Positions 1-14,978 of a DNA stretch of 25,348 nt are shown here, in pieces; the stretch's first letter is position 1; each line of letters starts with the position of its first letter. The DNA is taken from positions 1 through 25,348 of IMG/VR virus record IMGVR_UViG_3300006109_000240; one strand, given 5' to 3'. The notes beneath the pieces were generated by a model. It was not told the DNA's origin and did no database searches. It worked only from the letters and a program-made list of their open reading frames with translations. This stretch comes from a virus. The position numbers were made by a program, and so were the translations under genes.

Positions 1-179
1 TACACAACATCATACTCATTATGATCTTCATGGGCATTACCGGCCCAATTGACGTCAACGCGATCATACTTGCCGGTCTGACGAATCTGATCCGCGTAGA
101 TGACGCCTTGTGCGGATCGATGGGATGCCAGACGAGGAACTATCGGAATGAAGGGTGCGGTTACAAGAGCTTTCATCAT
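1..179 (-). CDS. 5' part of an unidentified protein, cut by the window edge
   Basis: The reading frame starts with two consecutive Met codons at 179 and 176 and stays open for 59 codons to the left window edge. The N-terminus has a hydrophobic beginning, MKALVTAPFIPI, and ends with YDVV at the edge. That is compatible with the first strands of a Rossmann-like or glycosyltransferase-like fold, but the fragment is too short to name. It follows the 353-residue transferase-like gene (199-1260) in the same direction with a 19-base gap, so it probably belongs to the same modification operon. The rest of the gene lies outside the window. Confidence 0.6.
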   Translation of the reverse strand, partial: MMKALVTAPFIPIVPRLASHRSAQGVIYADQIRQTGKYDRVDVNWAGNAHEDHNEYDVV

Positions 180-198
180 GTAAGTATTATATCGCACT

Positions 199-1260
199 TC
201 AGACTTCTGTAAATTCCAAAGTAGCGCGATCGTAATTTTTATCCCAGAGACGACGCGTCGTGTGCCCATTCAGCACGACCTTGCCTTCCGGATGCTTGGC
301 CAGATCGAAATCCATCGGAAAGATCCAATCATAAGGAATACGCTTCGTTGGATGTTTTACGCCATGATGGATAAAAATAGACTTTGCAAAAAAACATGAC
401 TTATCCTCTACGTTCAGCATCTTCTGCGAAGTCATAGGATTGTCTGGATGCTCACAGAGGTAACTCATCTGAGAAAGCCACACGTTGGCCTGATGATTCT
501 TTGGAACGAACTCGCCGTCCGCATCGATCTCATACTTCACCTTGCCGTTGACGTTCTCGAGGAAGATCTGATGCATGCCGTCGAAGTGTCCGGTGCCGCC
601 GAAAAGGACAGACTCCGGATCGACGAGATGAGGATAGGCCATTGCGACGTATCGAGCCGTGTTCTTACACGGATAGAGCGGAGAACGAAAGTTTTGTTCC
701 TTCTTGAAGTGAGCCTCGAGGATCTTGGCAAACTGCATCATCGTGTACCTCTTGCCGTTTGTAAGGTGATGATGCAGAGCATTCGCCGCTTTCAGCGGTC
801 CAGTCAGGAGCCACTCCTTCACGTCCGTACCCTTGGGATAGTAGATCTGAAAGAGGTCCGAACGGGCATGGCGATTATGCTTGAAGTGTTCGCGAGTCTT
901 ATCGATGCCGTGGGTCATCAGATGAGTTAGAGTACCCCAATGCTCATTGGTAAACGAGAAGACGAGGGCGTACCAAAGACGATCACGAGAGTCTTTTACT
1001 CCTGTCATGAGCTCCACGAAAGGATGTTCATGCCAATGAAGACGATGGGAGAAGATCTGATAGTCTTCTCGAAGGAGACGATCTTCTCGCTTATCAAACT
1101 CTCGGCAGAATTCAAAGAACTTCTCGAGCCTCTCGTCTTGAGTCCACTCACGCATCCAAGAATCCGTAGGCTTACCGTCTTTCAATAGTACCTGCGTCGT
1201 ATTTGGATACTCGATGTTGCGATAGGGAATGGATCCCTCGATGAAAGGCTCGAGACTCAT
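199..1260 (-). CDS. alpha-glutamyl/putrescinyl thymine pyrophosphorylase-like protein (amino acid:DNA transferase-like), copy 2
   Basis: This 353-residue protein is rich in His, Trp and aromatic residues. I assign it to the phage aGPT-PPlase / amino acid:DNA transferase family, whose members are implicated in linking amino acids or polyamines to activated 5-hydroxymethyl-pyrimidines in DNA. The assignment rests on its resemblance to the 402-residue protein at 3110-4318. Both have a helical N-terminal half with an aromatic WY(A/I) helix, then a helix ending in YP, about seven residues, and F(G/Y)G. Here this is AYP at 208-210 and FGGTG at 220-224. The start at 1260 follows the 74-residue gene's stop by one base. 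The operon contains a hydroxymethylase and a PLP enzyme, which supports a role in base modification. Sequence similarity between the two copies is low, so the family call is moderate and the substrate is inferred. Confidence 0.55.
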   Translation of the reverse strand: MSLEPFIEGSIPYRNIEYPNTTQVLLKDGKPTDSWMREWTQDERLEKFFEFCREFDKREDRLLREDYQIFSHRLHWHEHPFVELMTGVKDSRDRLWYALVFSFTNEHWGTLTHLMTHGIDKTREHFKHNRHARSDLFQIYYPKGTDVKEWLLTGPLKAANALHHHLTNGKRYTMMQFAKILEAHFKKEQNFRSPLYPCKNTARYVAMAYPHLVDPESVLFGGTGHFDGMHQIFLENVNGKVKYEIDADGEFVPKNHQANVWLSQMSYLCEHPDNPMTSQKMLNVEDKSCFFAKSIFIHHGVKHPTKRIPYDWIFPMDFDLAKHPEGKVVLNGHTTRRLWDKNYDRATLEFTEV

Positions 1261-1261
1261 G

Positions 1262-1486
1262 TTATTCGCGTTCTTCGACTGAATCGGCGATCTCGAGGAG
1301 CGAATCAGCGATCAGACGAGCCGCGCGAGGCTCGAACGTAAACGTCGTTACGTCTTCCTCGTTCTCGATGTACTTCAGCGTAACAAACCCCGGGGCCTGT
1401 TGATCCTGCTCGACGAGCCAATGATAGTAGCCGTGACAGTCACTGATTTTTACCGTTTTTTCCCGTGTGTATGTTTTGTTGCTCAT
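1262..1486 (-). CDS. small hypothetical phage protein (74 aa)
   Basis: I do not recognise this 74-residue acidic protein. It contains a short aromatic stretch (GYYHW, about residues 19-23) and a C-terminal amphipathic helix rich in Ala, Asp and Glu. There are no Cys pairs, membrane segments or catalytic motifs. The frame is intact, and its stop lies one base before the start of the downstream 353-residue transferase-like gene, which implies translational coupling. The upstream 52-base gap is very AT-rich and may hold a promoter. Function unknown. Confidence 0.65.
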   Translation of the reverse strand: MSNKTYTREKTVKISDCHGYYHWLVEQDQQAPGFVTLKYIENEEDVTTFTFEPRAARLIADSLLEIADSVEERE

Positions 1487-1538
1487 ATTGTTTATTGTTT
1501 TTTTTATCTCGATCCGAATTATTACTTATCTAGATAAA
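1487..1538 (-). promoter_or_regulatory. AT-rich gap with TATAAT-like element and TTATCTAGATAA palindrome
   Basis: On the minus strand this short gap contains a TATAAT sequence that directly overlaps a perfect 12-base palindrome (1526-1537). After it come an A-rich stretch and the start codon at 1486. I see no clear -35 element at the right spacing and no Shine-Dalgarno sequence. It is one of the few non-coding AT-rich gaps in the modification operon, so an internal promoter or operator is plausible but unproven. Confidence 0.25.
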
Positions 1539-1739
1539 TTATAGGGTCTCATTTTTGAACAGAGATTTCAATCTTTTCCAAAACGACTTAAACCAAAAAT
1601 TTCTAATATGGCTACAAACAGGACAATACTCCAATTGATATTCAGCGGTATTAGTCCAGTGAAAGTGACGTTTTGAATGGTCACACGCGATTGATTGGGC
1701 TTCCATTGTTTTGTTAATATTTGTGTCTTTATCGTTCAT
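1539..1739 (-). CDS. small zinc-ribbon-like protein (66 aa)
   Basis: This 66-residue protein has one Cys/His centre: C19 and H21 in ACDHSKRH, followed by CPVC near residues 39-42. That spacing is typical of a small treble-clef or zinc-ribbon structural zinc site. The C-terminal third is basic and aromatic (FWKRLKSLFK), a possible nucleic-acid- or membrane-facing helix. Its start codon overlaps the stop of the upstream YopX gene in an ATGA arrangement, so the two are translated together. The base composition is clearly more AT-rich than the flanking transferase genes. Function unknown. Confidence 0.6.
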   Translation of the reverse strand: MNDKDTNINKTMEAQSIACDHSKRHFHWTNTAEYQLEYCPVCSHIRNFWFKSFWKRLKSLFKNETL

Positions 1740-2152
1740 TTTAGTAAATCCTTATTTTCAAATATGTTGCCAACCACCTCGAAATCGCACAAAACATCCA
1801 CCATCGAATACCACCATGTATAATCTGCAGATTTGTATTTTCCAAAAGCAAACGCACAATCTTCAGATGAATACCACACCTCAGCATTTTTTACATTTTC
1901 GGCTTCAGGCCCATGAGTCATTCCATATTCAGTGAAATTTACAATATCACCTTCATATATCTCTTTACCATTTTTATCTTTGAGTCCTGTGTATTGTTGA
2001 ATCACATAATCGCCATCATCAATATTGGATATTGTTATTTGATTGCCTGTGTGATGCCATAGTAATTGTCCACCACTACAGGAATAAAATGGAATATCCG
2101 TAAAATGTTTGGTGGTATTGCACCAGACTCTAAACTTAATTTCTCTATTCAT
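1736..2152 (-). CDS. yopX: YopX family protein
   Basis: This 138-residue protein matches the phage YopX family. It has the family's opening REIKFRVW, the central signature YTGLKDKNGKEIYEGDIV, and the closing FEVVGNIFEN near the C-terminus. YopX proteins are common in Gram-positive and other phages and prophages. Their role is not established, although an SH3-like beta fold is expected. The gene sits in an AT-rich stretch (about 1500-2160) inside an otherwise more balanced modification operon, and it is coupled to the next small gene by ATGA. This suggests a later insertion of a cassette. The start at 2152 is the only Met before the conserved opening. Confidence 0.9.
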   Translation of the reverse strand: MNREIKFRVWCNTTKHFTDIPFYSCSGGQLLWHHTGNQITISNIDDGDYVIQQYTGLKDKNGKEIYEGDIVNFTEYGMTHGPEAENVKNAEVWYSSEDCAFAFGKYKSADYTWWYSMVDVLCDFEVVGNIFENKDLLK

Positions 2153-2160
2153 ATTTTATA

Positions 2161-3102
2161 TTATTCATTCCACATGCGACTGCGGTCCAGATCACCGAAG
2201 TCTTTCCACTTGCGCTGAGAGTTGATGCGCTTCACGTCAACCTTCGAGAGGTTGCGATTGATGTGAGCGTCCGAGCCGACATTGATGAATATCGCACCTG
2301 GCTTTCCGTCTTTGACGAATCCCTCCCATGCCTTGGCATCGTATGCGGCCGTGGACGGGAACGGCATAGTCTTGGCACACTTATGAGGAGTCAAAAATGG
2401 CATCGTGGCCGAAACCACCTTGGCATCGCCGATCTCTCCCTTATGAATGTTTCGAGCCACGGCGACTCCATATGCTTGAGCCGTCGGCCATCCGATCTGC
2501 AATGCACGGACCATCGTGCCAGTAGAAACCGCACACCAGATTTCCGTGGGCTCATCGCCGATGATTTTTGTAATCGTATTGGCCATGTTGGCCAAGCCAG
2601 CCGTGACCATGGGGTTTCCGGTCAGACCAAATGGAAGGTATTGAGCATTGTTGGCCTCGGCCCACTTACGTGCATATGAGTTGAGAACCGGCATCGCGGC
2701 GATCTTGAAGAATCGAAGGTCTACATGTGAATACGCGGCCAGAGATCCTTGATGATTGGAAACTTCCGAGGATGCCGGACAGAAGAAGACGCACTTCTTA
2801 CCATACATCTCCGCGAGCATCGCAATAGCATCCGGAGCATGACCCTGGCGAGGGGCGCAGTACACGAGCGTATCCTTATTCGTCTCGGCGATCACTCGCT
2901 CTCCGCCAAAGGCTTTTAGTCCACCTGGTGCCAGATCCGCGCGCAAAATGTACTTATCTCTAAAGCGTTCAACGATCGGCTCGGCGATCTTGGACTTAAA
3001 CGTCCCCCAGATCTCCGCATAGTATTGTTTGGCCTCAGATCGAGACATGCCCATCGGAATATCCTTGTTGCTTCCATCCGTAACTATCGTATATGGTTTC
3101 AT
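2161..3102 (-). CDS. PLP-dependent enzyme, fold type II-like (tryptophan synthase beta / threonine synthase superfamily)
   Basis: This 313-residue protein shows the layout of fold type II PLP enzymes. An N-terminal LRADLAPGGLKAFGGER segment puts K63 where the Schiff-base lysine is expected. NHQGS (about 116-120) lies on the substrate side, and the glycine-rich STGT at 193-196 fits the cofactor phosphate loop. It is shorter than free-living ACC deaminase or threonine synthase relatives. Start 3102 (MKPYTIV) fits the 7-base gap after the stop of the upstream transferase-like gene; the longer frame would only read into that gene. In hmU-hypermodifying phages such as ViI, a PLP enzyme decarboxylates or trims an amino acid already attached to the base. 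The same role is inferred here from the neighbours. The exact reaction is unknown. Confidence 0.8.
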   Translation of the reverse strand: MKPYTIVTDGSNKDIPMGMSRSEAKQYYAEIWGTFKSKIAEPIVERFRDKYILRADLAPGGLKAFGGERVIAETNKDTLVYCAPRQGHAPDAIAMLAEMYGKKCVFFCPASSEVSNHQGSLAAYSHVDLRFFKIAAMPVLNSYARKWAEANNAQYLPFGLTGNPMVTAGLANMANTITKIIGDEPTEIWCAVSTGTMVRALQIGWPTAQAYGVAVARNIHKGEIGDAKVVSATMPFLTPHKCAKTMPFPSTAAYDAKAWEGFVKDGKPGAIFINVGSDAHINRNLSKVDVKRINSQRKWKDFGDLDRSRMWNE

Positions 3103-3109
3103 GGTAAAA

Positions 3110-4318
3110 TTATTTAGTGGGGAACTTATCAGGCACTCCGATCCAGTCCTTGAAGTCAGAATGGGATTGAACAAGCTTGATGTAGGCCTGTGGAGTCAGA
3201 TTGTTCGCCTTCAGCACCTCGTCGTAATAGAAGTTCTGTGTTGAATCGTTGAACGTCTTCACGAGGCCGAGCTTAAGCATAGGAAGCTGACGACCGTACG
3301 GATGAATGATCTTCGTGGAACTGAATACTCGATCTCGATCGATCGTATTGTAGGCTTCTCCCAGGCGAACATACGATGTCACCCAACGAATGTAGTCACA
3401 GCAAACATCTTCGCAATCGTAAGGCACACTGCCGGTATCTTTGCATGCCATCTCCATGACCGAGTCTAGAAAGTCTTCGGTCTTCATCTTCTTGAGGGGA
3501 CGAGCCAGGTACGAGATACATTCGATCGCATTGGAACCATAGAAGAACATCGAGTCGCGAACGACGTATTGAGGATACCAGTCGGCGATGTCGGCCACGA
3601 TCGCCGCGTACTGAAAGTGATACTGTCTCAGGCCATTTCGCACGTTCCAGTCAAGCATGAAGCTTCCGATCTCTCGAAGAGTCTTCTTCTGACCCTTCAC
3701 GAGCCAATCGGCCAGATCTCGTGCCAGTCGTGGAGCATACTCACAAAGGAAGTAGTCTCCTCCACGTTTGTACTTCGATGAAGGCTTGGGAAACGCCGGA
3801 AACTGATAACCCACGGATGTGTAGAATGAGTTCGACTCATGACGGACCATCTCGCACATATCCTCGATCGTCTTGGCTCGATGAAGCTTGAAGAGGAGAG
3901 TGTTATGGTACCCCGAAGGTTTCTGAGCATAGTTGATGCCAGAACCACACACTCGATGAAGGATGAAGATGTAGAGCCATTCGGCCAGAGAGAAGTCATC
4001 ATGCTTTCCAATCCAGTCATGAGCCACTTGACTCCTCTGCTCGGTGATCATTCCGGCTTGCATCTTCTTCCAGTACGGATGACGATCGGTCCATCCATAG
4101 AAGACGTCATTGACGATCTGAGAGAATCCGGCATACTTACGCTCGACGACGTCGTACAGTTCGACGTGTTCCATGAGATCATCACCCATCTTCGATTCTC
4201 GATGAGTCATCATTCCATATGGAGGCAGAGAGGAGACATTGCACTTGGTCTGTTGCTCTCGAGCCAGATCGTAATACCGCAGAAAGTCCTGATAGTATGG
4301 AGTCGCTTCAATTTTCAT
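3110..4318 (-). CDS. alpha-glutamyl/putrescinyl thymine pyrophosphorylase-like protein (amino acid:DNA transferase-like), copy 1
   Basis: This 402-residue, largely helical, aromatic-rich protein is the stronger of two family members in the window. Visible blocks are LAEWLYIFILHRVCGSGINY (111-130), WYPQYVVRDSMFFYGSN (247-263 region) and a Cys-containing DCEDVCCDY (301-309). The family (aGPT-PPlase, also called HMUDK-associated helical or AADT) occurs in phages that hypermodify 5-hydroxymethyl-uracil, where it attaches amino acids or polyamines to phosphorylated bases. Start 4318 overlaps the dCMP deaminase end by 11 bases and begins MKIEATPYYQ; longer starts run inside the deaminase gene. Next in the operon is a PLP enzyme. 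No DNA-base kinase, which the known pathway needs, is visible in this window. Confidence 0.65.
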   Translation of the reverse strand: MKIEATPYYQDFLRYYDLAREQQTKCNVSSLPPYGMMTHRESKMGDDLMEHVELYDVVERKYAGFSQIVNDVFYGWTDRHPYWKKMQAGMITEQRSQVAHDWIGKHDDFSLAEWLYIFILHRVCGSGINYAQKPSGYHNTLLFKLHRAKTIEDMCEMVRHESNSFYTSVGYQFPAFPKPSSKYKRGGDYFLCEYAPRLARDLADWLVKGQKKTLREIGSFMLDWNVRNGLRQYHFQYAAIVADIADWYPQYVVRDSMFFYGSNAIECISYLARPLKKMKTEDFLDSVMEMACKDTGSVPYDCEDVCCDYIRWVTSYVRLGEAYNTIDRDRVFSSTKIIHPYGRQLPMLKLGLVKTFNDSTQNFYYDEVLKANNLTPQAYIKLVQSHSDFKDWIGVPDKFPTK

Positions 4319-4766
4319 AATATTGAATCCAATCGTATTCAATTCCGGCTTCCGCAAAGAGTTCTTTAGTAAAGTCACATGACTTAATCCATTGCTCGGC
4401 CACGATCTGTCGTGGAACGACCACGCGTTTAATACCAACCTGAATGATTCCCTTGGCACATTCAGAGCAAATTGGTAAGCCAGTGGCATAGAGAGTTGCT
4501 CCTTTCAGAGAAACACCATGTTCGACCGCGTTGTAGATCGCATTCATCTCGCCATGAACAATATACTTGTATTTGACTTCACGAACATTTAGACGATCTG
4601 GATTATCCTCAATTCCACTAGGAAAGCCATTGTAGCCAGTAGACAAAATCTTTCGATCTCGAACAACAACCGCTCCAATACGAGTCGATGGATCTTTGGA
4701 CCATGATGCGACTTGTCGAGCCATGTCCAAAAATCTTATGTCCCATTTGTCGACTTCAGTTTGCAT
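4308..4766 (-). CDS. cd: deoxycytidylate (dCMP) deaminase
   Basis: This 152-residue zinc enzyme converts dCMP to dUMP for thymidylate supply. The zinc and catalytic motifs are plain: HGEMNAI (His ligand and catalytic Glu) and PICSECAKGII (two Cys ligands), as in T4 Cd. An N-terminal SKDPSTRIGAVVV strand and a GYNGFP loop are also typical of dCMP deaminases. It is shorter than T4 Cd (193 residues) but complete. Its start overlaps the end of the hydroxymethylase gene by 11 bases, and its end overlaps the next transferase-like gene by 11 bases. Because it is coupled to a hydroxymethylase, it could also deaminate hm-dCMP to hm-dUMP, which would change the substrate of the downstream modification enzymes. 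That is an inference. Confidence 0.95.
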   Translation of the reverse strand: MQTEVDKWDIRFLDMARQVASWSKDPSTRIGAVVVRDRKILSTGYNGFPSGIEDNPDRLNVREVKYKYIVHGEMNAIYNAVEHGVSLKGATLYATGLPICSECAKGIIQVGIKRVVVPRQIVAEQWIKSCDFTKELFAEAGIEYDWIQYYEN

Positions 4767-5502
4767 AGGGGCGTACTTTAGGATAGAACTTACGATATTC
4801 TTCCTTACTTATCGAGTGCTGTCCAGTCAGATCGAAATGATCGATCAGATAGAACTGACTCGAATAGACATGTAAATTTCCAACGTTCCAGACGATGTGA
4901 CCCAGATCGACGTTGGATTCCGTCAAACGATTGTAGTCATTCAGAAGCTTCTTCAATACATGAAGCTGCCAGGCGTAGTCGTTACGATATCCAGCCCAGG
5001 CATCGTTGCTTCGCATCGAGACGATGGCATGCATGGAATTCTCACGAATGAAGTACTGAACCGTGTTCGTGCAGATGAAATCCGACATGCCGTCCTTACA
5101 GAAGTCTTCATGCATGGAAGGACGCGTGTAGATCATGATCGCACGACGTGAATTCTTATTGCAGATGAGTTCTCTCAGGCATCCGTCATATTGACTACCA
5201 TTCTCCTTCGACCAGATGCACCATCCATAGTTCGAGTTGATCAATCCATTGGGCGTCGCGATCTTCTTCCAGATCTCTGGAACCTTGGCGGGAATGTCAT
5301 TCACGTTTAGTGACTTTGACTCATACCATTGAAGCTCACGCTTCACGTAGTCGTCATTCACGGAGCCAAAGATCGTCGGCTCATCGGCCATGAATTGAAC
5401 TCCGATGATCTCGACGGTCAGAGCTCCGGTCTTGTCGATCGTGAAGTTCTCGTTCCTCAAAAGATCCGAGAACTCTTTGCGAATGTCATTGATGTTCCGC
5501 AT
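4756..5502 (-). CDS. 42: dCMP hydroxymethylase (T4 gp42-like, thymidylate synthase fold)
   Basis: This 248-residue protein closely follows T4 gp42 along its whole length (FADEP/IFG, INSNYGW, IYTRPSM, DGMSDF, CTNTVQY, MRSND, GYRNDYAWQ, IWNVG.LHVYS). C144 in SDFICTNTVQ is the nucleophile that attacks C6 of the pyrimidine. D175 in GYRNDYAW sits 31 residues later, exactly as C148 and D179 do in T4, and that Asp is the residue that favours dCMP over dUMP. The product is 5-hydroxymethyl-dCMP, so the phage DNA probably carries modified cytosine. A strong AAGGAGG ribosome site inside the end of the upstream gene, and a TAATG junction, define the start at 5502. High confidence in family; cytosine preference inferred from D175. 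Confidence 0.95.
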   Translation of the reverse strand: MRNINDIRKEFSDLLRNENFTIDKTGALTVEIIGVQFMADEPTIFGSVNDDYVKRELQWYESKSLNVNDIPAKVPEIWKKIATPNGLINSNYGWCIWSKENGSQYDGCLRELICNKNSRRAIMIYTRPSMHEDFCKDGMSDFICTNTVQYFIRENSMHAIVSMRSNDAWAGYRNDYAWQLHVLKKLLNDYNRLTESNVDLGHIVWNVGNLHVYSSQFYLIDHFDLTGQHSISKEEYRKFYPKVRPYAN

Positions 5503-5885
5503 TATCCCTTGACCTCCTTCTTGGGACGATTAAAAATGTCATGATTTGCTTTTTGACCATCCATCTTGCCTCGACAGTATGAGACGATGAACGAGCAATA
5601 GTTAGCCATGTCCTTGGCCGAGTCCTCGATCGATTCGAAGTTGGGTTGATAGTTTGGATCGTTTAGCATGGCTGAAACCACGGATTCCAAACGAAGCTTC
5701 TTGGCATGGACGATGTCCATCAGAGTCAAGATGCCATTTGGATAGTAATCGGCTTGCTTGATTCGAGACACGGCATTTTGATAGTCCACGCCTTTACGAG
5801 TCTGCAATTCAATGCATTCTTGTAAGACGCGAATCGATTCACGAGATGTTGATAGAATAGGTGACATAAAATGAAGAGACATCAT
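5502..5885 (-). CDS. Nmad1 / DUF1599 nucleotide-modification-associated protein
   Basis: This protein of up to 127 residues fits the DUF1599 family, renamed nucleotide modification associated domain 1. Supporting segments are ELQTRKGVDYQN, IKQADYYPNGILTLMDIVHAKKLRLESV and a C-terminal PNYQPNFESIEDSAKDMANY block. Family members lie next to thymidylate synthase-type and base-modifying genes in phages; their activity is not established. Here it is directly coupled (TAATG) to dCMP hydroxymethylase. The start is uncertain: Met codons at 5885, 5882 and 5867 are all possible, none has a good ribosome site, and the conserved part begins after the third. Confidence 0.75.
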   Translation of the reverse strand: MMSLHFMSPILSTSRESIRVLQECIELQTRKGVDYQNAVSRIKQADYYPNGILTLMDIVHAKKLRLESVVSAMLNDPNYQPNFESIEDSAKDMANYCSFIVSYCRGKMDGQKANHDIFNRPKKEVKG

Positions 5886-6353: not shown

Positions 6354-6428
6354 TGGCGACCCTACCGGGAATCGAACCCGGGCTACCTCCGTGAAAGGGA
6401 GGTGTCCTAACCGCTAGACCATAGGGTC
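6354..6428 (-). tRNA. tRNA-Glu (anticodon UUC)
   Basis: The minus strand folds into a full cloverleaf with a perfect 7-bp acceptor GACCCTA/TAGGGTC, D-arm and T-arm GGTTCGATTCC. The anticodon stem is CCTCC/GGAGG with loop CTTTCAC, giving anticodon TTC. CCA is encoded (6354-6356) after discriminator G. It lies six bases downstream of the 215-residue gene and just before the 35-residue peptide gene. Confidence 0.97.
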
Positions 6429-6434
6429 GATGGA

Positions 6435-7082
6435 TTAGTTATAGTTCTGAGTCTCGTCGTCTCGACACTCACGACAACGCAGAGCGATCCAGTGATTGGA
6501 CCTCGACTTCACATCATGATTTGATCCACAGGCCTCGCATGTTCGTGCGGACCAGGACTCGGCCATGGAGATCAAGCCATCCACATATTCGTCCGAGACA
6601 TTCTTGTAGATACGCAGAGTTCCGAACTTCTCCTTGACCTGTTCAAAGGTAACTTGAGGATGAACCTTTCGACCAGAGAGCTCTTGGTAAAATATCCATC
6701 TGGCGTCCCATCTGTCTTGAAAAGCCACCAGTTTCTTCCATTGACCGTCATATCGAGCATATTCAGGAGAACCATCTACCGGAAAGCTTTGTGGAACTCC
6801 GGCCTTCGTGATGAAGTGCCGATAAGCCCAACGTTCGATGAATCGATTGTAGAAGCGATGCCACTCACGAAATACCCAGTAAGTGATCGGACTATACTTA
6901 GGAACATATTCATCACGATCACAGTGATGTTGAATTTGTGCACAGAGTGTGTCGAGGATGTCATACCATCCGTCGTCACATTCGATTCCCCAGCACATAC
7001 ACGTCTCCGTCATTGGCTTCGACGCGGAGGCAAAGATCTTTGGATACTTGTCGTAAAGGGATTTTTGTTTTTTAGGTGTCAT
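6435..7082 (-). CDS. conserved phage protein of unknown function with C-terminal zinc site (215 aa)
   Basis: This 215-residue protein resembles a conserved hypothetical seen in many tailed phages: LYDKYPKIF near the start, ETCMCWGIECDDGWYDILDTLC (about residues 26-47), then FEQVKEKFGTLRIY and DGLISMAESWSARTC. The C-terminal TCEACG...RCREC arrangement looks like a zinc ribbon. The role is unknown. The start at 7082 has no Shine-Dalgarno sequence; it is preceded by a T7 tract directly after a strongly folded RNA (7097-7175), so translation may depend on that structure. tRNA-Glu follows its stop by six bases. Confidence 0.85.
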   Translation of the reverse strand: MTPKKQKSLYDKYPKIFASASKPMTETCMCWGIECDDGWYDILDTLCAQIQHHCDRDEYVPKYSPITYWVFREWHRFYNRFIERWAYRHFITKAGVPQSFPVDGSPEYARYDGQWKKLVAFQDRWDARWIFYQELSGRKVHPQVTFEQVKEKFGTLRIYKNVSDEYVDGLISMAESWSARTCEACGSNHDVKSRSNHWIALRCRECRDDETQNYN

Positions 7083-7084
7083 AA

Positions 7085-7175
7085 TAAAAAAATCGAGCCG
7101 AATCGGAGTAAGCCGTTGTCGAGTGACTAGTATCTTACCGGACGGGGCATGGAGCCCCTTGTCCTCCGATTCGGC
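7085..7175 (-). ncRNA. three-way-junction structured RNA followed by a U tract
   Basis: A perfect 12-bp closing stem (7097-7108 with 7164-7175) encloses two more hairpins. One is GTAAG/CTTAC (7108-7112 with 7134-7138). The other is a GC-rich stem with GGAC/GTCC plus GGGGC/GCCCC (7140-7148 with 7154-7164, TT bulge). On the minus strand it is followed four bases later by seven T residues (7091-7085) and then the start of the 215-residue gene. It lies between tRNA-Met and that gene. It may be a stable small RNA comparable to the extra stable RNAs in the T4 tRNA cluster, a terminator, or a leader element controlling the next gene. Confidence 0.6.
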
Positions 7176-7179
7176 AAAT

Positions 7180-7254
7180 TGGGAGCAGGGGACGGAATCG
7201 AACCGCCGACCTGGTGGTTATGAGCCACCCGATCTACCACTGATCTACCCTGCA
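7180..7254 (-). tRNA. tRNA-Met (anticodon CAU), with unusual 1:72 pair
   Basis: The minus strand forms a D-arm GATC/GATC, anticodon stem GGTGG/CCACC with loop CTCATAA (anticodon CAT) and a T-arm GGCGG/CCGTC with loop TTCGATT. The acceptor has six pairs (GCAGGG/CCCTGC) and a T-T mismatch at position 1:72 before C-CCA. The anticodon stem lacks the three GC pairs of initiator tRNAs, so it is more likely elongator Met, or Ile with a modified CAU. Confidence 0.88.
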
Positions 7255-7344
7255 GTTAAAATTTATTCTGAGATAATTCTATCATGAAAGGCCGCATCTC
7301 AGTCATTCGGCCACTTACTCACTTCCGCTACCGCTCTAAACATA
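7255..7344 (-). other. inter-tRNA spacer with hairpin
   Basis: The 90-base spacer between tRNA-Asp and tRNA-Met has no reading frame. It contains a perfect 7-bp inverted repeat CTGAGAT/ATCTCAG (7268-7274 with 7296-7302). It may be a processing signal for the tRNA transcript. No further tRNA can be folded from it by eye. Confidence 0.35.
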
Positions 7345-7421
7345 TGGCGCGAGTGACGGGGCTCGAACCCGTAACCTCTGCCGTGACAGGGCAGCGCTCT
7401 AACCAATTGAGCTACACCCGC
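7345..7421 (-). tRNA. tRNA-Asp (anticodon GUC)
   Basis: The minus strand folds as a canonical tRNA. The acceptor is GCGGGTG/CACTCGC (one G-U pair), the anticodon stem CTGCC/GGCAG with loop CTGTCAC gives anticodon GTC, and the T-loop is TTCGAGC. Discriminator G and encoded CCA end at 7345. It is the first tRNA of the cluster in the direction of transcription. Confidence 0.97.
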
Positions 7422-8002: not shown

Positions 8003-8995
8003 TTACGACAGAATTCGATCGACTCGAATCATCACTTGCTTGACGGCCATCCACATGTCGAGGTAAGTATAGGTTGCCAATCGTCCCAGGAAGATTGTCT
8101 TCCTCTCCGCATCAGCCAGCTTCTTGTATTCCATATAGACCTTCAGGCCTTCTCCGAATGGGATTGGATAGAACGGAACGTCTTCATTTCCGCAAGTCTG
8201 AGGATACTCCTCGGTGATGACAGTCAATCCTTCATGATTTGCAGTGAAGTAACCGTGATCGTACTTTCGAGTGTAGTCGTTCGTTCTATTGTTCTCGTTC
8301 TGAATGCAAAACGGCATGCGCTCACTCGTTACTTTATGAACGAATCTGAGAGAACGATAAGGAAGGACACCGAATCGAAAGTTGAAGTACTCGTCGACCT
8401 TTCCAGTGTAGACGATCAGGTCTGTCGAGTGCTTCTTCCATTCGTCTGAGGCGCATCCGAGCTCTACAGGAATGCCTTCGAGCATGGCTTCGAACATTTT
8501 CGTGTATCCGTTTCGGGGAATGCACTGATACTTCTGGCCTTCGAACCAGGTGGGATCGTCACAATCCTTGGTCTTCGGGATGCGATTCGTGATGCTTGCT
8601 GGGATTTGATCGAACGGAACTCCCCATTGCTTTTCGGAGTACTCGCGAAACATATACTCAATGATCTCTTCCTGAGACAGCTCGCGACCAATCTCGGCGA
8701 CGGTCTTTCGAGAATATGGAAGCGATACTAGCCCAAGGCGAGTGTTTCCCTTCGGCTGAAGCTTAAATGGAGTCCACTCTGTGAAACGGGATAGGAATTC
8801 AAACACTCGCTCATCGTCCGTGTGAAAGACGTGAGGGCCATAGTTGTGAACCGTCACTCCACATACATTGGAATCATAGCAGTTACCGCCGATGTGCTTG
8901 CGCGAGTCGAAAATGCGGCACTCATGTCCAGCATCGGTCAGGAGTCGTGCGGCCGTGATACCAGAGAGGCCGCATCCGACGACGTTAACTTTCAT
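8003..8995 (-). CDS. glf: UDP-galactopyranose mutase
   Basis: This 330-residue flavoprotein interconverts UDP-galactopyranose and UDP-galactofuranose. The FAD-binding VVGCGLSGITAARLL (5-19), GGNCYD, YGPHVFHT, YSEKQWG, RIPK, NGYTKMFEAML, VYTGKVDEYF and GRLATYTYLD segments follow E. coli Glf along the whole length. The protein is about 35 residues shorter than E. coli Glf, mostly in the region around residues 85-110, which forms part of the helical domain. Its ATG overlaps the upstream methyltransferase stop (ATGA), and it is the last gene of the glycan operon. It implies that the phage attaches galactofuranose somewhere, on the virion, on host surface glycan or on DNA. Which one cannot be read from sequence. 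Confidence 0.96.
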   Translation of the reverse strand: MKVNVVGCGLSGITAARLLTDAGHECRIFDSRKHIGGNCYDSNVCGVTVHNYGPHVFHTDDERVFEFLSRFTEWTPFKLQPKGNTRLGLVSLPYSRKTVAEIGRELSQEEIIEYMFREYSEKQWGVPFDQIPASITNRIPKTKDCDDPTWFEGQKYQCIPRNGYTKMFEAMLEGIPVELGCASDEWKKHSTDLIVYTGKVDEYFNFRFGVLPYRSLRFVHKVTSERMPFCIQNENNRTNDYTRKYDHGYFTANHEGLTVITEEYPQTCGNEDVPFYPIPFGEGLKVYMEYKKLADAERKTIFLGRLATYTYLDMWMAVKQVMIRVDRILS

Positions 8996-9645
8996 AGCTT
9001 TTCAAATTCAGGCAGACGTATGGTCTTCGACAGGATGTCGAGGAGATGGTTTCGTTTCTCAAATGTAGCCCGCCAATCTTTGAAGTTCTGCTGAGGAGAA
9101 AATTGCTTTTTCACTTGCACGAACGTCATTCCCCATGATTCCGGATAATGTTTCGACTCGACAAATTCAGTCTTTTGATCCAGACTCGAGATGCCGAAGA
9201 ACGCTTTGACCGCTTCTTCTGGCCTTTCCCAGACTATGCCTCCGTACATATCGTGCTTGTCTTTCGGCCATGCGGTGTCATGGAATACGACATAGCCACC
9301 TTCCCTGATGTGAGGGAACCAGAAGAATAGCTCACAAAGAACCTGCTCTTTGATGTGGCACGTGTCAATGAAGAGCAGGTCGATGGATCCTTTGTTCCAG
9401 TGTTTGCCGATCGTAACTGAGTCTCCGAGTATGAATGCATATCGTTCATGATTCGTCAGATAAGATGGAACCTGAGCAGAGTCAATGTCGACTCCGTGCA
9501 CTCTATTATTTCGAGCAGAAGCATCGCGAATCATCATCATCGACGACTCTCCGCTTCTAACGCCTAGATCCACAAACATTCTGTCGGATCCAAGCGAATC
9601 GACGGTTTGTGCTAGAATCTCTTGATTTGGTCCTAGATCGTTCAT
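8992..9645 (-). CDS. class I SAM-dependent methyltransferase (Methyltransf_24-like)
   Basis: This 217-residue protein has the Rossmann methyltransferase order. FVDLGVRSGESS (24-35) is motif I for SAM, VHGVDIDS gives the acidic ribose-binding Asp, and IDLLFIDTCHIKEQV and GGYVVFHDTAW follow. IDTCH and the FHDTAW block are typical of the small-molecule and sugar methyltransferase or cephalosporin-hydroxylase-like group. It overlaps its neighbours on both sides by ATGA, and an AAGGAA ribosome site lies upstream of 9645. In this operon it most likely methylates a sugar or glycan, an inference from context. Confidence 0.85.
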   Translation of the reverse strand: MNDLGPNQEILAQTVDSLGSDRMFVDLGVRSGESSMMMIRDASARNNRVHGVDIDSAQVPSYLTNHERYAFILGDSVTIGKHWNKGSIDLLFIDTCHIKEQVLCELFFWFPHIREGGYVVFHDTAWPKDKHDMYGGIVWERPEEAVKAFFGISSLDQKTEFVESKHYPESWGMTFVQVKKQFSPQQNFKDWRATFEKRNHLLDILSKTIRLPEFEKL

Positions 9646-10526
9646 AATAAGTATTCCTTGATTTGCATGTCCAAGTCAGAACATTGATGTTTAAGAATGT
9701 TTTTACTATTAGCAAATTCGTCTATAATCGTCTCATATGAAGTCAGACATCGTCGAATCACTTCACCTATCATTCGGTGATCGCCGAGTTTATACATGTC
9801 TGGAACCGTTACGTCTTCACTAAAAGCCGCTGAACCTTTACGATTTGTGATAACACAGTTACCGAAAAGCAAAGCTTCACGAGGGATTCGATCCTTTCCA
9901 GGATGATTCCCAAAGTCTATATAAATCTTGCTCTTGCACAGGAGATCGATGACCTGTTCTCGATTCAGTCCTGAGATCGGTCTGAAGTCGATGTTCGGAT
10001 TCTCCGTCATGATCTGCATCGTCACTTCGTACCCCTTGGCCGGATTATAGCATACGAAGTCTTGCTTCTCTGATAGAGGAATGTCTTGAATCGTATTGGC
10101 ACCAAAGATGTAATCGTTCAGCATGTGAACATTCTTAGCTCCATTGCGAGTGACGTAGTCGTAAGCGTACCGCGACTGACAGAAGTGAGTAATTGAGGTG
10201 TCGTGAAAGTCCTGAAACTTAGAATGATTGTTGTCAACGCTTAGCCACCAGATAGCCCGTGATATCGATTTGAATGAAGGAAGCATCGCGGTCCACACTT
10301 CAGGAACGATTAGTAGACTTTCAGCTTCGTCTGGAACAGAGAATCCATACTCTGAAAACTTGTAGTGAGCATAGATGTTTAGGACCGGATTCGAGCAATG
10401 ACGATCAAAGATCGGTATAGCTTTACCTCCAAGTCGATTGATGCCGTCGATCAACTGATACAATGATTCGATCCCTCCGGCCTGATACTGAGCCGGAGTC
10501 ATCACATAAATTGCTTTGAATCTCAT
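9642..10526 (-). CDS. GT-B type glycosyltransferase (GT4-like)
   Basis: This 294-residue protein has a two-domain GT-B look. An N-terminal half contains MTPAQYQAGGIESLYQLIDGINRLGG (nucleotide-sugar enzyme style G.E loop). The C-terminal half has FVCYNPAKGYEV, then ISGLNREQVIDLLCKSKIYIDFG and IPREALLFGNCVITNRKGSAAF, equivalent to the donor-binding E..A.G.PVI region of GT4 enzymes. It uses a nucleotide sugar, unknown from sequence. It is linked to both neighbours by ATGA overlaps in the glycan operon. Confidence 0.8.
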   Translation of the reverse strand: MRFKAIYVMTPAQYQAGGIESLYQLIDGINRLGGKAIPIFDRHCSNPVLNIYAHYKFSEYGFSVPDEAESLLIVPEVWTAMLPSFKSISRAIWWLSVDNNHSKFQDFHDTSITHFCQSRYAYDYVTRNGAKNVHMLNDYIFGANTIQDIPLSEKQDFVCYNPAKGYEVTMQIMTENPNIDFRPISGLNREQVIDLLCKSKIYIDFGNHPGKDRIPREALLFGNCVITNRKGSAAFSEDVTVPDMYKLGDHRMIGEVIRRCLTSYETIIDEFANSKNILKHQCSDLDMQIKEYLL

Positions 10527-11224
10527 GTGCGCACGTACTTTCTTCTTACATATTCAAGTTCAGATTGCTTCTTCGCATCGCTAACCAAAGACGAGCTTAT
10601 CTGATTCGAATGCTCGCGATTTGCCACCGTGATCTGATTGCAGATCGCTGGAAGCCCATGCTTATCATACAGCTGCTTATAGTAGTCGACATCCATCAGC
10701 CATATCAAATTCTCATCGAATCGCAGGACGTTTTCATTCTTGAACATAATGACACTCGGCGAGCTGATAGTATTTGTGCCATATTGAATCTCATCATGAT
10801 AGAATGGAAAGTTCGGTCGTTCCAGCCTGACACCGTCCGGAGACTGGCATGAAGCCGTTGCCAACCAGTAGTTTTGACTTCCCGCGAAATAGAACATCAT
10901 TGCTTCAAGACTTCGATCGGAAGTTAGGAAGTCATCTTGAAAGAGTGGCTTTATCACCTTTCCACATGCGTGATGAATCGCATTGTTGGTATTGTGAGAA
11001 GAGTTACCTCGATTCATCGCTTTAACATATCGAATGAGTAAACGATCATTCCATCGTTCGCATAGTCGATTGATCCCATCGTCGATGCTCTGATCGGACA
11101 CGATCACTTCGAAAGACTTGAATGTCTGACGAGTTAGTATTGAAAATGAATGTTCAAGGTAAGCGACGCCTTGACCGGCCATTTCATAAGTTGGAATGCA
11201 TATCGATACGATCGGATCGTTCAT
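10523..11224 (-). CDS. GT2 family glycosyltransferase
   Basis: A 233-residue GT-A fold enzyme. PIVSICIPTYEMA opens the nucleotide-binding domain, FKSFEVIVSDQSIDDG follows, and FQDDF (about 94-98) stands in place of the DxD metal motif. It lacks any transmembrane segments, unlike polymerising GT2 synthases, so it probably adds a single sugar in the cytoplasm. It overlaps the next gene by ATGA and is preceded by the GT10-like gene with the same arrangement. Confidence 0.9.
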   Translation of the reverse strand: MNDPIVSICIPTYEMAGQGVAYLEHSFSILTRQTFKSFEVIVSDQSIDDGINRLCERWNDRLLIRYVKAMNRGNSSHNTNNAIHHACGKVIKPLFQDDFLTSDRSLEAMMFYFAGSQNYWLATASCQSPDGVRLERPNFPFYHDEIQYGTNTISSPSVIMFKNENVLRFDENLIWLMDVDYYKQLYDKHGLPAICNQITVANREHSNQISSSLVSDAKKQSELEYVRRKYVRT

Positions 11225-12051
11225 AGCTTGGGTAGATTTAGATTCTCAAGTATTTCACTCAGACGATAGAAATAGTCACCCCAGTAGAGAGCCCTCCGGC
11301 AGTTATCTTCGATTGCCTGACTCCTCTTATGATAGTCTTCTTCCGTTAGACCATTGACGATTTGAATGAGTTCGTTCTCGTCATTGAACGTGATGTACCC
11401 ATCTGGATTGAAGAAGTCTGATAGATTTGGACATCCCCAGTATATGGGAACGGTCTTGGTCAGGAAGCTGTCAATCACTTTCTCCGTAAAGTAGTTCTTA
11501 TTCCTCGAGTTTTCGACCGCGATATGGAACATGCTTTTCCAGCATACTACTTTGTCTTGAGGTTCGCATTGAAAGATCCAGCTGTTTGGAGTTGTCACTG
11601 AAGATCGAGAGTTGAAGATGCTGTGTCTAAGCCGATGACCCTCGATGGCATTCTTGACACCGCAAAGAAATGAAGTTTCAAACTTCTTTTCTTTGATGCT
11701 GATATTCTGATATGTCCGCTTGTTGTCCCAGATGAAAGACGTACCAAAGGGAAACATCATGGAGTTTGGACACTTTGACAGTATTGAATCTCCCCAAGTC
11801 AAAATCAAATTAAAAGCTCGATGATTTGTGATCGCCCAGTCGTGTAGACCAAACAATTGATTCGGTTCCTGTATGACGAGTATGTTACATGCGCTAAGTT
11901 TCAGCTGATCTGTATTCGGAATAAAGTCGGTGAATACGGTAACGTTCCTATCGGAGAAGTCGACTTTTTTGCTCGGAAGAATGAAGTCTTCTCCAGTCAG
12001 AAGAGTCTTCTCATAAAGAGAAGGTGGTATGAAGGTCGAGAAGAATTTCAT
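11221..12051 (-). CDS. GT10-family alpha-1,3-fucosyltransferase-like protein
   Basis: A 276-residue protein whose C-terminal half carries the GT10 donor-binding signature: FHIAVENS, then NYFTEKVIDSFLTKTVPIYWG and CPNLSDFFNPDGYI. The GT10 family moves fucose from GDP-fucose to GlcNAc or glucose. Start 12051 is an ATGA overlap with the stop of the GT11-like gene; longer starts only extend into that gene. No GDP-fucose synthesis genes (gmd, fcl) are in the window, so the donor must come from the host or elsewhere in the phage genome, or the enzyme uses another deoxysugar. Confidence 0.88.
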   Translation of the reverse strand: MKFFSTFIPPSLYEKTLLTGEDFILPSKKVDFSDRNVTVFTDFIPNTDQLKLSACNILVIQEPNQLFGLHDWAITNHRAFNLILTWGDSILSKCPNSMMFPFGTSFIWDNKRTYQNISIKEKKFETSFLCGVKNAIEGHRLRHSIFNSRSSVTTPNSWIFQCEPQDKVVCWKSMFHIAVENSRNKNYFTEKVIDSFLTKTVPIYWGCPNLSDFFNPDGYITFNDENELIQIVNGLTEEDYHKRSQAIEDNCRRALYWGDYFYRLSEILENLNLPKL

Positions 12052-12863
12052 ATAATGATCCAGTTTTTCTGATACAGGTCGCTGATATTTGCCTCCGCCA
12101 GGTGCTGACGAAACCACACAGACGGAGCTATAACTTTCTTATTTGGATTAGAGTTTAGCCAACTTCCCCACCATGAGAACGTTGAGTTTGCGATGATATT
12201 GTGCTGGCACAGGGACATCAGGCATAGCTCGACGAACTGATTGTTAGCCGTGCAAAGACGGACCGAATCGCTCGGACGAATCTTTTGCCCCAGGAATGCC
12301 GGATCGTCCGTGATGTAGATGAAGTCATATGGCTTATCCAAAAAGTTCTCTTCAATGGCCCTACGGTAATATGTTTCATCGCATAAGCCATGCCATGTAT
12401 TTTGCACATAGTCACCTCGCCGAACATGAATCGATACCGTCTCATGATCAGGACGAAGATATTTCTTGGCTTCTTCGATGATCTCGGGTTTGAAAGTGAA
12501 TTCACGTCGTACCCGATCTTCAATGTGTTCAAAGTATCGATGAGTTTGAAAGTATCCACGTAGACATACATTATCACCTGTATGAAAGAATTTCTCTTGA
12601 AAATGAAATTCATTTGGACTATTCTCAATGGCAAACTTATACTCGCCAGGAACACAATCCTTACACGACAGATTAAATGCCTTATCAACCGTCATGGCGT
12701 GAAAGGTATTATCAATCGGAAATTCTTTCCACGTAAGAGAATTTCCATATCGTCGATCGATTCCCCAATCGAGATTCTGTTTAGTCGCGATGCCCATCAG
12801 AGCCGCATATTGAAACATTTGATTGCCCAACCTCCCATTAGGTCCTATGAGTGCCGTAATCAT
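12048..12863 (-). CDS. GT11-family alpha-1,2-fucosyltransferase-like protein
   Basis: A 271-residue protein with the GT11 hallmarks: GRLGNQMFQYAALMGIA near the N-terminus, HVRRGDYV (the GDP-fucose-binding motif) in the middle, and NIIANSTFSWWGSWLN in the C-terminal third. It would transfer fucose in alpha-1,2 linkage. Start 12863 (MITALIGPNGRLGNQ) matches family starts and is four bases after the stop of the upstream GT2 gene. Length is close to the usual 280-300 residues. Confidence 0.93.
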   Translation of the reverse strand: MITALIGPNGRLGNQMFQYAALMGIATKQNLDWGIDRRYGNSLTWKEFPIDNTFHAMTVDKAFNLSCKDCVPGEYKFAIENSPNEFHFQEKFFHTGDNVCLRGYFQTHRYFEHIEDRVRREFTFKPEIIEEAKKYLRPDHETVSIHVRRGDYVQNTWHGLCDETYYRRAIEENFLDKPYDFIYITDDPAFLGQKIRPSDSVRLCTANNQFVELCLMSLCQHNIIANSTFSWWGSWLNSNPNKKVIAPSVWFRQHLAEANISDLYQKNWIII

Positions 12864-12867
12864 AATA

Positions 12868-13563
12868 TCATTTATAGTATTTTTCCGCACGAGGTAGTCC
12901 ATCTGCTCCATTGACGAAGACGATGGCCTCAGGTGGAGGAACTTTGCCGTGACCGGTATAATGAACGGCAAACTTAGTCGTATAGTTTACCGTAGGCTTG
13001 AAAGATCTCGCCACATGTTGCTTAGGCAAATGATGCCAGAAGATACGATCTCCGATAATACCGAGTTTCTTCTCCTTAAATGTCCAGAATCCGATGAGAT
13101 TGAAAGCCGATCGAGCGATCAGATAGCAATTCGTATCACAAAAGTTAACGCCGTCGGATTCGAGGCACGTGGCAATGACTTCACCTTGCAGATCTCGCAA
13201 AGTCCTTCCAGTCGTAACGATCGGAGTCTGATCCGTAACTTTAGATATAGCCTCGGCTACGTGATCGGATTCATACCAACAGTCCGCATCGAGGAAGCAC
13301 ACGGCGTCGAATCCTTGATTACAGGCAATGGCCGCACCAATCGCTCGTGGAGTGTCACCATAGTCTCCGCAGTTTGGAATCGAAAAATGACGATTCTTGC
13401 CGAATTTCACGCTCGGTAAATCATCGATCCAGGCTTGAGGATGACCATCCGCAACAATGAAGTGAGACACATATGGGTGAGTCTGACTCGTCACGGAACG
13501 CATGCATCTGACCAGAGTATCGGGATCTTCCTTATAGTAGGGAGTAATGACGGCGACATTCAT
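12868..13563 (-). CDS. GT2 family glycosyltransferase
   Basis: A 231-residue GT-A fold enzyme beginning NVAVITPYYKEDPDTL. It continues with RSVTSQTHPYVSHFIVADG and ends the donor domain with AVCFLDADCW, where DAD (about 104-106 region) is the metal-binding DxD. Residues IIGDRIFWHH lie in the acceptor half. The start at 13563 follows the stop of the primase-like gene by four bases, and the longer frame would read through that gene. It is first in the glycan operon. Confidence 0.9.
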   Translation of the reverse strand: MNVAVITPYYKEDPDTLVRCMRSVTSQTHPYVSHFIVADGHPQAWIDDLPSVKFGKNRHFSIPNCGDYGDTPRAIGAAIACNQGFDAVCFLDADCWYESDHVAEAISKVTDQTPIVTTGRTLRDLQGEVIATCLESDGVNFCDTNCYLIARSAFNLIGFWTFKEKKLGIIGDRIFWHHLPKQHVARSFKPTVNYTTKFAVHYTGHGKVPPPEAIVFVNGADGLPRAEKYYK

Positions 13564-13567
13564 AAAA

Positions 13568-14564: not shown

Positions 14565-14978
14565 TTATTTTTCGTATGCCTTCGAAATGATTCCATGATT
14601 GTTGGAATGATCAGGCGCTTTCCATCCCGGCTCTTTTATCAAATCCGGAAGTCCCCAAGGATTCGGACGAGACGCCTTAATGCCAACCTTCTTGTTCATG
14701 TTGGCGCGCAGAACTTCTTCCCAAGCTTCCTGAGCGTCGACGTCGTATGCATCCAGAGTGCCGATGGCTACGACGCAGAGATCGATCAGCGCATCAACGA
14801 TTTCTTCGGCATCACCGGCCTCAACGGCCTTCATTCCCTCATTGAGTTCCTCTTGCAAAAAGCGAAAGCGAAAGCTGAGGTACTCGCGCAGATGTTCCTT
14901 CGATAGCGTGAGAGTCTTGGTCTTCACGCCGTAATGCTTATGCATATCCTTGATGTCTTGATTCCAGTTTAAGCTCAT
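14565..14978 (-). CDS. MazG/PRA-PH-like nucleotide pyrophosphohydrolase
   Basis: A 137-residue all-helical protein of the phosphoribosyl-ATP pyrophosphohydrolase-like / MazG superfamily. The EELNEG (39-44 region) and EEIVDALIDLCVVAIGTLDAY segments supply the E..E and E..D metal-binding residues. A conserved tail NKKVGIKASRPNPWGLPDLIKEPGWKAPDH is typical of a phage-specific subgroup. It would hydrolyse a nucleoside triphosphate, and in a phage with hydroxymethylated cytosine such an enzyme could cleanse unmodified or damaged dNTPs. That role is inferred. Confidence 0.8.
   Translation of the reverse strand: MSLNWNQDIKDMHKHYGVKTKTLTLSKEHLREYLSFRFRFLQEELNEGMKAVEAGDAEEIVDALIDLCVVAIGTLDAYDVDAQEAWEEVLRANMNKKVGIKASRPNPWGLPDLIKEPGWKAPDHSNNHGIISKAYEK

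Follow-up and report, generated by a model that had tools for sequence, protein, structure and literature searches.

The chemistry of thymidine hypermodification in the phages M6, ViI, PaMx11, phiW-14 and SP10 is reportedly set out in work by Lee et al. from 2018 and 2022. In outline, as given in parts of PMC6449724, 5-hydroxymethyl-deoxyuridine (5-hmdU) is acted upon by a kinase and subsequently by a transferase. A relevant enzyme of phage PaMx11 is PUGT, the 5-phosphomethyl-dU glycinyltransferase. On cytosine, Synechococcus phage S-B43 forms 5-carboxymethylcytosine-glycine by means of CmoA, CmoX and CmoY (according to parts of PMC12783734), and a carbamoyltransferase acting on 5-hydroxymethylcytosine (hmC) was found by MetaGPA (in the parts of PMC8670742 concerned with it). 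In the following, these systems are compared with a DNA modification cassette in a virus record of 25,348 bases (IMGVR_UViG_3300006109_000240), the whole of which is referred to as the window.

We favour, with moderate confidence, the reading that this cassette belongs to large, mostly uncultured T4-like phages whose DNA is predicted to carry an amino-acid-type decoration on hmC; enzymes of this kind are so far known to act in this way on thymine. The prediction draws on sequences and structural models, namely on a hydroxymethylase of the dCMP type, a pyridoxal phosphate (PLP)-dependent enzyme from the PHROG of M6 gp52, models of two proteins (P1 and P5) for which PUGT ranks first, an E-x3-C motif and the linkage of the genes. 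It is further based on the fusion of the cassette protein U1 with another part, A44, in Aeromonas phage 44RR2.8t, on the 5-hmdU kinase family PF18748 being found in 0/15 related contigs and on the T4 glucosyltransferases going unrecognised in two longer relatives of the window. The cassette covers window positions 1-5885 on the minus strand, in the order N1, hydroxymethylase (HMT), dCMP deaminase, P5, PLP enzyme, three small genes, P1 and the start of U1. Its genes, together with one further gene of the window, are as follows.

1..176, minus strand: start of U1 (N-terminal ~58 residues; the gene leaves the window), complete with 371 amino acids in a near-identical contig (L041:14314-15426)
199..1260, minus strand: P1, 353 amino acids, predicted amino acid:DNA transferase-like fold (AlphaFold model, PUGT top in re-alignment, E285/C289)
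2161..3102, minus strand: PLP-dependent enzyme of the M6 gp52 PHROG (phrog_7093, E 3.3e-73)
3110..4318, minus strand: P5, 402 amino acids, predicted amino acid:DNA transferase-like fold (AlphaFold model, PUGT top in re-alignment, E303/C307)
4308..4766, minus strand: dCMP deaminase (Pfam PF00383, E 9.7e-22; phrog_174, E 4e-46)
4756..5502, minus strand: dCMP hydroxymethylase (HMT) of the T4 gp42 type (Pfam, PHROG and PDB sequence match; C148/D179 kept)
5502..5885, minus strand: N1, 127 amino acids, frequent neighbour of HMT (phrog_1485, E 6.4e-12)
14565..14978, minus strand: MazG-like nucleotide pyrophosphohydrolase (PRA-PH, E 3.9e-10; phrog_671, E 3.4e-24)

A megablast comparison of the window with phage records gave no match. 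Two longer relatives, one near-identical to the window (G001, 117,947 bases) and one more distant (G002, 167,599 bases), both feature a T4-like core including gp43, gp44, gp45, gp46/47, gp41, uvsX, gp32, gp59 and gp17. Among viral contigs, P1 relatives were found in 38 loci, and P5 relatives gave 91 matches, the best 80 of which were kept. From 119 loci with a P5 match, 70 were picked by hand, dropping most contig repeats and most short loci; near-identical viruses are still found among these 70 (e.g., L040/L041/L042 and L054/L058). A well-flanked set, in which P5 is preceded by more than 4 kb and followed by 4.5 kb or more, comprises 34 loci, corresponding to 24 P5 types at <95% identity and 18 at <85%. 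In this set, P5 is accompanied by U1 in 34/34 loci, by the PLP enzyme in 32, by P1 in 27 and by HMT in 24. The cassette genes are real, and their adjacency recurs in a few arrangements across many diverged contigs, far beyond chance.

The initial annotation had described one operon of an Nmad1 protein, a hydroxymethylase, a dCMP deaminase, two transferase-like proteins and a PLP enzyme. All of these genes are present on the minus strand and recur in diverged contigs, and the names given to the hydroxymethylase, the deaminase and the PLP enzyme stand. The Nmad1 label for N1 is not supported: DUF1599 (PF07659), taken here to be Nmad1, matches nothing in the window at E ≤ 10, and by hidden Markov model N1 does not belong to it. 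N1 occurs in 41 of the 70 loci and matches, apart from phrog_1485 (unknown function), only phrog_18404, annotated as 'hydrolase'. A further conserved gene of ~138 amino acids, U2 (L044:9600-9998 and alike), precedes P5 in 32/70 loci and is without a significant family match; no counterpart was seen in the cassette of the window.

The HMT shares 60% identity with the corresponding enzymes of T4-like Salmonella phages and, among PDB sequences, matches the dCMP hydroxymethylase structures 1b49 (T4), 6l18 and 6a9a with E 5e-91 to 7e-89. As had been annotated, its D175 lies at the position of Asp179 of T4, and this residue is invariant in 23/23 aligned relatives. The distinct thymidylate synthase (TS)-type proteins of the loci were aligned to T4 gp42 and the positions of Cys148 and Asp179 were read. 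Both residues are kept in the window and in 43/43 distinct HMT copies. These copies, some of them closely related to each other, come from loci obtained by searching with P1, P5 and the PLP enzyme, and each of these loci has a P5 match. Cys148 and Asp179 are likewise kept in 17/17 HMT-class proteins from loci of the A44 type described below and in 17/17 HMT-class matches of a genome search, three of the latter aligning with little other likeness. Two further TS-type proteins in A44 loci are divided between Asp and Asn, and a fragment stops short of the site. TS-type proteins were found in 20/25 long records and in 9/11 records of the P5 type, the other two being contigs of 93 and 83 kb. M6-type dUMP enzymes feature Asn at the Asp179 position in 29/29 cases, as do three canonical TS-like matches of the genome search. 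Because Cys148 and Asp179 are kept in the HMTs, as opposed to the Asn of the M6-type enzymes, we predict with good confidence that the hydroxymethylated base is cytosine, and hmC is in all likelihood the acceptor of the decoration.

The PLP enzyme links the cassette to a thymidine pathway, as M6 gp52 falls into the same PHROG (E 2.2e-159) and hhalign of the window-type family against the M6 gp52 family reaches 96.5%. The PLP profile found no match among PDB sequences at 0.001. One lysine (K62 of the aligned sequence) is invariant in 26/26 PLP sequences and is taken for the cofactor lysine. In M6, the gp52 gene is located between the ADDT and radical SAM genes, and PLP enzymes of the gp52 family presumably decarboxylate a base-bound amino acid. 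For the PLP enzyme of the window, decarboxylation of the attached amino acid is a role for which the case appears evenly balanced. In phage records, a PLP search by tblastn (E ≤ 0.001) matched three only, among them Erythrobacter phage R6L and Microcystis phage Mae-JY30 (L132, L133), and the matching genes in these three are annotated as 'DNA (modification) methyl(transfer)ase'. In Mae-JY30, the PLP-like gene comes after two ParB/sulfiredoxin genes. The genes of R6L and Mae-JY30 possibly take part in another PLP-linked DNA modification.

P1 and P5 have no match in 50,697 phage records (tblastn, E ≤ 0.01) and no significant Pfam or PHROG match (for PHROGs, one P1 and 28 P5 members). Their relationship to known transferases is suggested by AlphaFold models, which reached predicted local distance difference test (pLDDT) scores of 88.7 for P5 and 83.4 for P1, with predicted template modelling (pTM) scores of 0.89 and 0.82, respectively. 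For comparison with the PDB, Foldseek preselected 719 and 770 chains, and only these were re-aligned for the P1 and P5 models. PUGT came out top in both cases, as 8z2n for P1 (Z 9.5, root-mean-square deviation 4.3, 228 amino acids; next Z 7.6) and as 8z2m for P5 (Z 8.9, root-mean-square deviation 4.1, 207 amino acids), values to be read with the aligner's caution that mostly helical models with Z under ~13 may share a common arrangement only. Another PDB entry, 25qc, is an ADDT-domain structure close to M6 gp51. Searches of BFVD pair the two proteins with each other's families, the P1 model retrieving a P5 homologue (E 2.6e-4) and the P5 model a homologue of P1 (E 4.2e-4); UniProt names these homologues amino acid:DNA transferase domain proteins, and Pfam ADDT matches no member here. 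The next tier consists of aGPT-PPlase clade 1 proteins (E 0.0015 and 0.0054), HMUDK_hel proteins (E 0.014 and weaker) and some unnamed ones.

A feature shared beyond the models is the motif E-x3-C near the C-terminus, the two residues being invariant in the 22 aligned P1 (E285/C289) and the 28 aligned P5 sequences (E303/C307). It is found in A44 (21/21), in M6-type ADDT (34/34) and in HMUDK_hel (23/29) as well; among controls it occurs in 0/26 PLP, 2/23 HMT, 4/32 U1 and 0/18 V1 sequences (V1 being a protein of the A44 loci) and in 13-22% of shuffles. The motif was observed in this analysis, has no published definition, and sequences within one family are not independent of each other. Profile alignments of P1 with P5, of P1 with HMUDK_hel and of A44 with HMUDK_hel superpose it, only the last pair lying clearly above background. 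P1 against P5 gave 12.8% by hhalign in one direction and 0.9% in the other. On the evidence of the models, P1 and P5 very probably adopt an amino acid:DNA transferase (AADT)-like fold. They would thus be structural relatives of the AADT superfamily outside its Pfam families: the transferase-like fold of the initial annotation is borne out by the models, and membership in PF18724 or PF18723 by sequence is not.

The initial annotation had noted the lack of a base kinase in the window. PF18748 indeed finds none there, and beyond the window it was found in 0/15 related contigs of 23 to 168 kb, three of which have ~167 kb and all of which may be incomplete; M6 as control gave 1/1. The M6-type kinase profile hit only two P-loop ATPases in G001 and G002 (E 1.2e-4 and 0.0068), which fit T4 gp46 and gp44 better and were rejected. 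A candidate for this place is U1, a protein of ~330-370 amino acids which adjoins P5 in 58/70 hand-picked loci and 34/34 well-flanked ones. U1 has the invariant blocks G-D-S-H and D-x-R-H-H, which resemble those of SGNH proteins; its C-terminal part is weakly SGNH-like, with weak Pfam matches to GDSL lipase families (best E 0.1). The N-terminal part bears a weak resemblance to T4 beta-glucosyltransferase: Pfam T4-Gluco-transf matches 10/32 members (best E 0.003), and hhalign of U1 with the T4 enzyme gives 34.6% over only ~50 aligned residues. No PDB sequence was matched by the U1 profile at E 10. Of 43 phage records with relatives of U1, 38 belong to Aeromonas phages. In M6, the genes for HMUDK and HMUDK_hel adjoin each other, and by analogy U1 may supply the catalysis to a helical protein that flips the base. 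That U1 replaces the base kinase is suggested tentatively. A protein resembling C5-cytosine DNA methylases and bearing a CPC(A/S)GLS motif (L041:15426-16622; L196:7319-8536) is encoded in 15/70 P5 loci and 17/60 A44 loci, mostly adjoining U1, with at most 60% identity across both systems.

The cultured T4-type phage 44RR2.8t encodes, besides a gp42-type enzyme with Cys148 and Asp179, the protein ORF233c (795 amino acids; L192:6001-8388; annotated 'hypothetical protein'), in which a U1 domain is followed by the 425-amino-acid part A44. On its own, A44 matches HMUDK_hel with E 0.0007 and 19.4 bits, which is under the cut-off of 25, and hhalign against the M6-type HMUDK_hel family gives 44%. By clustering, of 60 viral loci found with A44, which include close relatives, 57 have U1, 59 V1, 46 V3, 24 a gp56-like dCTPase and 22 an HMT (L195-L254, e.g., L196:2496-6057 and L235). 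V1 is a myo-inositol/cyclitol-phosphate synthase and V3 an FkbM-like methyltransferase, one member of each having been tested; V1 had been suspected from its length to be P5-like, which was rejected. Thus, one core of U1 plus an AADT-like protein occurs with two different small-molecule enzymes and, where seen, the hydroxymethylase is mostly of the dCMP type. The composition of the sister cassette suggests a cyclitol-bearing cytosine.

Several observations weigh against an amino-acid-type decoration of hmC. P1 is missing from 7/34 well-flanked loci and HMT, by locus count, from 10/34; of these ten, L086 does have an HMT in the locus, and L054 and L058 have one elsewhere in their contigs (G004 and G005). 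From the cassette set, the locus L104 has, within the sequence covered, just HMT, deaminase, U1 and P5, and L094 just U1 and P5. At E ≤ 1, none of 22 P1 and 28 P5 members matched PF18724 (ADDT) or PF18723 (HMUDK_hel), and neither family was matched in any of 12 contigs. Plain Foldseek of P1 against the PDB reached E 2.2 at best, with PUGT not among the 50 matches listed; the rank of PUGT for P5 is tied with DUF2419 (Z 8.2), and the aligner's caution given above belongs here too. By hhalign, P1 and P5 against M6 ADDT and HMUDK_hel remain in the background (0.1-0.6%), in a test so weak that the known pair ADDT and HMUDK_hel scores 6.0% (1.4% reversed). Moreover, U1 need not be amino-acid-specific, because in phage phiAS4 it follows a UDP-galactopyranose mutase gene at a distance of two genes, and the searches with P1, P5 and A44 did not retrieve the phiAS4 record. 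Finally, the dCMP deaminase accompanying the cassette makes a route to 5-hydroxymethyluracil (hmU) possible.

This last route would require that 5-hydroxymethyl-dCMP is deaminated to 5-hydroxymethyl-dUMP and that uracil carries the decoration, as the initial annotation had considered beside cytosine. The deaminase gene is present in 38/70 loci, mostly adjoining HMT, and in 16/22 genomes searched, which keeps the route in play. Nevertheless, the deaminase is a normal T4 gene as well, and dCMP deaminase feeds dTMP synthesis. Cytosine is favoured over deamination to hmU because the HMT is of the dCMP type wherever found in P5-type relatives and the searched loci and genomes of the P5 type yielded no dUMP-type hydroxymethylase, and also because of the gp56-like dCTPase in 24 of the 60 sister loci with U1 and the weak match of U1 to the hmC-specific beta-glucosyltransferase of T4. 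Judged by these sequence comparisons, we regard decoration of uracil as quite improbable. An objection of another kind is that P1 and P5 lack a transferase role and are HhH-GPD-like DNA or nucleoside hydrolases, as in repair or queuine salvage. The glycosylases of the AGOG group and the queuine-salvage protein DUF2419 do rank next after PUGT (Z ~6 to 8.2). However, PUGT is top for both proteins, the BFVD matches are aGPT-PPlase and HMUDK_hel proteins, and both the E-x3-C motif and the linkage to PLP, U1 and HMT speak against hydrolases, so that this explanation is considered very unlikely.

A non-amino-acid group on hmC would leave the base as proposed and change the donor: U1 and an AADT-like protein would couple a sugar, cyclitol or polyamine, which the PLP enzyme would make or change. 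The sister cassettes give this some weight, as they pair U1 with A44 and V1 (59/60 loci) and contain no recognised PLP enzyme of the window family beyond a marginal match in 4 loci; the mutase lying two genes before U1 in phiAS4 has a counterpart in the window, too. On the other side, the PLP family is common to M6 gp52 of an amino-acid pathway, the synthase family PF01658 was found in 0/11 genomes searched (nine of the P5 type), and the mutase of the window and its neighbour genes appear in just 7 to 10 of 130 loci. We consider this explanation unlikely, and an amino acid as the donor probable.

For the favoured amino-acid-type decoration of hmC, the following sequence of steps can be proposed. 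The gp42-type enzyme would yield 5-hydroxymethyl-dCMP and thus hmC in DNA, a step that is well supported. U1 and P5 might then recognise and flip hmC and activate or exchange its hydroxymethyl group, with U1 filling the place of the P-loop 5-hmdU kinase of the thymine pathways. Judging from the fold, P5 and/or P1 would couple the C5 methylene to a free amino acid, and the PLP enzyme, going by its homology to M6 gp52, may then trim this amino acid, decarboxylation being the likeliest way. The end product would be a positively charged aminoalkyl cytosine that could shield the phage DNA against host nucleases. More speculatively, P5-type and sister cassettes could represent a kinase-free cytosine machine, in which U1 (a half like the acceptor half of beta-glucosyltransferase plus an SGNH-like half) and AADT-like proteins act on hmC with interchangeable donors, i.e., amino acids with the PLP enzyme here and a cyclitol-phosphate synthase in the sister cassette; many large phages would then have undescribed amino-acid- or cyclitol-bearing cytosines. 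If these proposals are true, amino acid:DNA transferase chemistry reaches beyond thymine, the P-loop base kinase seen in described pathways is replaceable, and T4-like phages, across a wide group, possess a new type of DNA armour.

Besides the cassette, the MazG-like protein is a possible dCTPase; its gene is present in 24/70 loci and lies close to HMT in other clades. The window further contains, at 8003-13731, a UDP-galactopyranose mutase (GLF) and several open reading frames (ORFs) taken as putative glycosyltransferases. Comparison of L043 with the window showed 93-100% identity for six genes of this region, 62% for a seventh and 62-89% for the cassette genes. The GLF-region genes have probably been exchanged recently, because their identity exceeds that of the cassette genes. 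The T4 gp43-like DNA polymerase is split into two ORFs (window 15428-16501 and 16523-18055), also in G001; in G002, one ORF encodes it. The region 6354-7421 contains three tRNA genes, Glu(ttc), Met(cat) and Asp(gtc).

Among the described systems, the M6 pathway resembles the proposed one in several respects: the DNA contains a pyrimidine that is hydroxymethylated, one or more AADT-like proteins and a PLP enzyme from the same PHROG take part, and the genome has a dCMP deaminase gene. It differs in its base, hmU, in a hydroxymethylase with Asn at the place of T4 D179, in the HMUDK P-loop kinase and a radical SAM gene, and in ADDT and HMUDK_hel proteins which are recognisable by Pfam, unlike P1 and P5. 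The hmC pathway of T4 (gp42, gp56, cd, BGT/AGT) shares the gp42-type hydroxymethylase, the dCMP deaminase and the T4-like replication core. Unlike in T4, glucosyltransferase, gp1 and gp56 are not recognised in G001 and G002, and PLP enzyme, P1, P5 and U1 are present. Searches of the G001 and G002 ORFs with T4 gp1, gp56, tk, pseT, BGT, AGT, denA, denB, arn and frd gave a best E of at least 0.25, and 57B gave E 0.063. One match to T4 alc (E 0.0028), a 77-amino-acid ORF that runs counter to the other genes, was disregarded.

Among the matches listed in the open-licence literature, no published hmC pathway with this transferase family was found. In the literature found, the known amino-acid cytosine is 5-carboxymethylcytosine-glycine only, made by an unrelated ligase route, as described in parts of PMC12783734. 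Phage S-B43 thus resembles the present prediction in that its DNA bears a modified cytosine coupled to an amino acid. It differs by the use of carboxy-S-adenosylmethionine (Cx-SAM) and an ATP-dependent amide ligase, and the terms aGPT, ADDT and PLP are absent from the main text of that source. The MetaGPA system likewise tailors hmC from a dCMP hydroxymethylase and differs, in the parts of its source that cover this, by a carbamoyl group and a carbamoyltransferase. ORF233c of 44RR2.8t is comparable in that a T4-type phage having a gp42-type enzyme joins a U1 domain to one like HMUDK_hel; it differs in that neither P1 nor P5 matches it and in that no PF01658 synthase was found in the phage. This U1-A44 fusion from a cultured phage, together with the availability of hmC DNA from T4 mutants, makes the proposed decoration directly testable.

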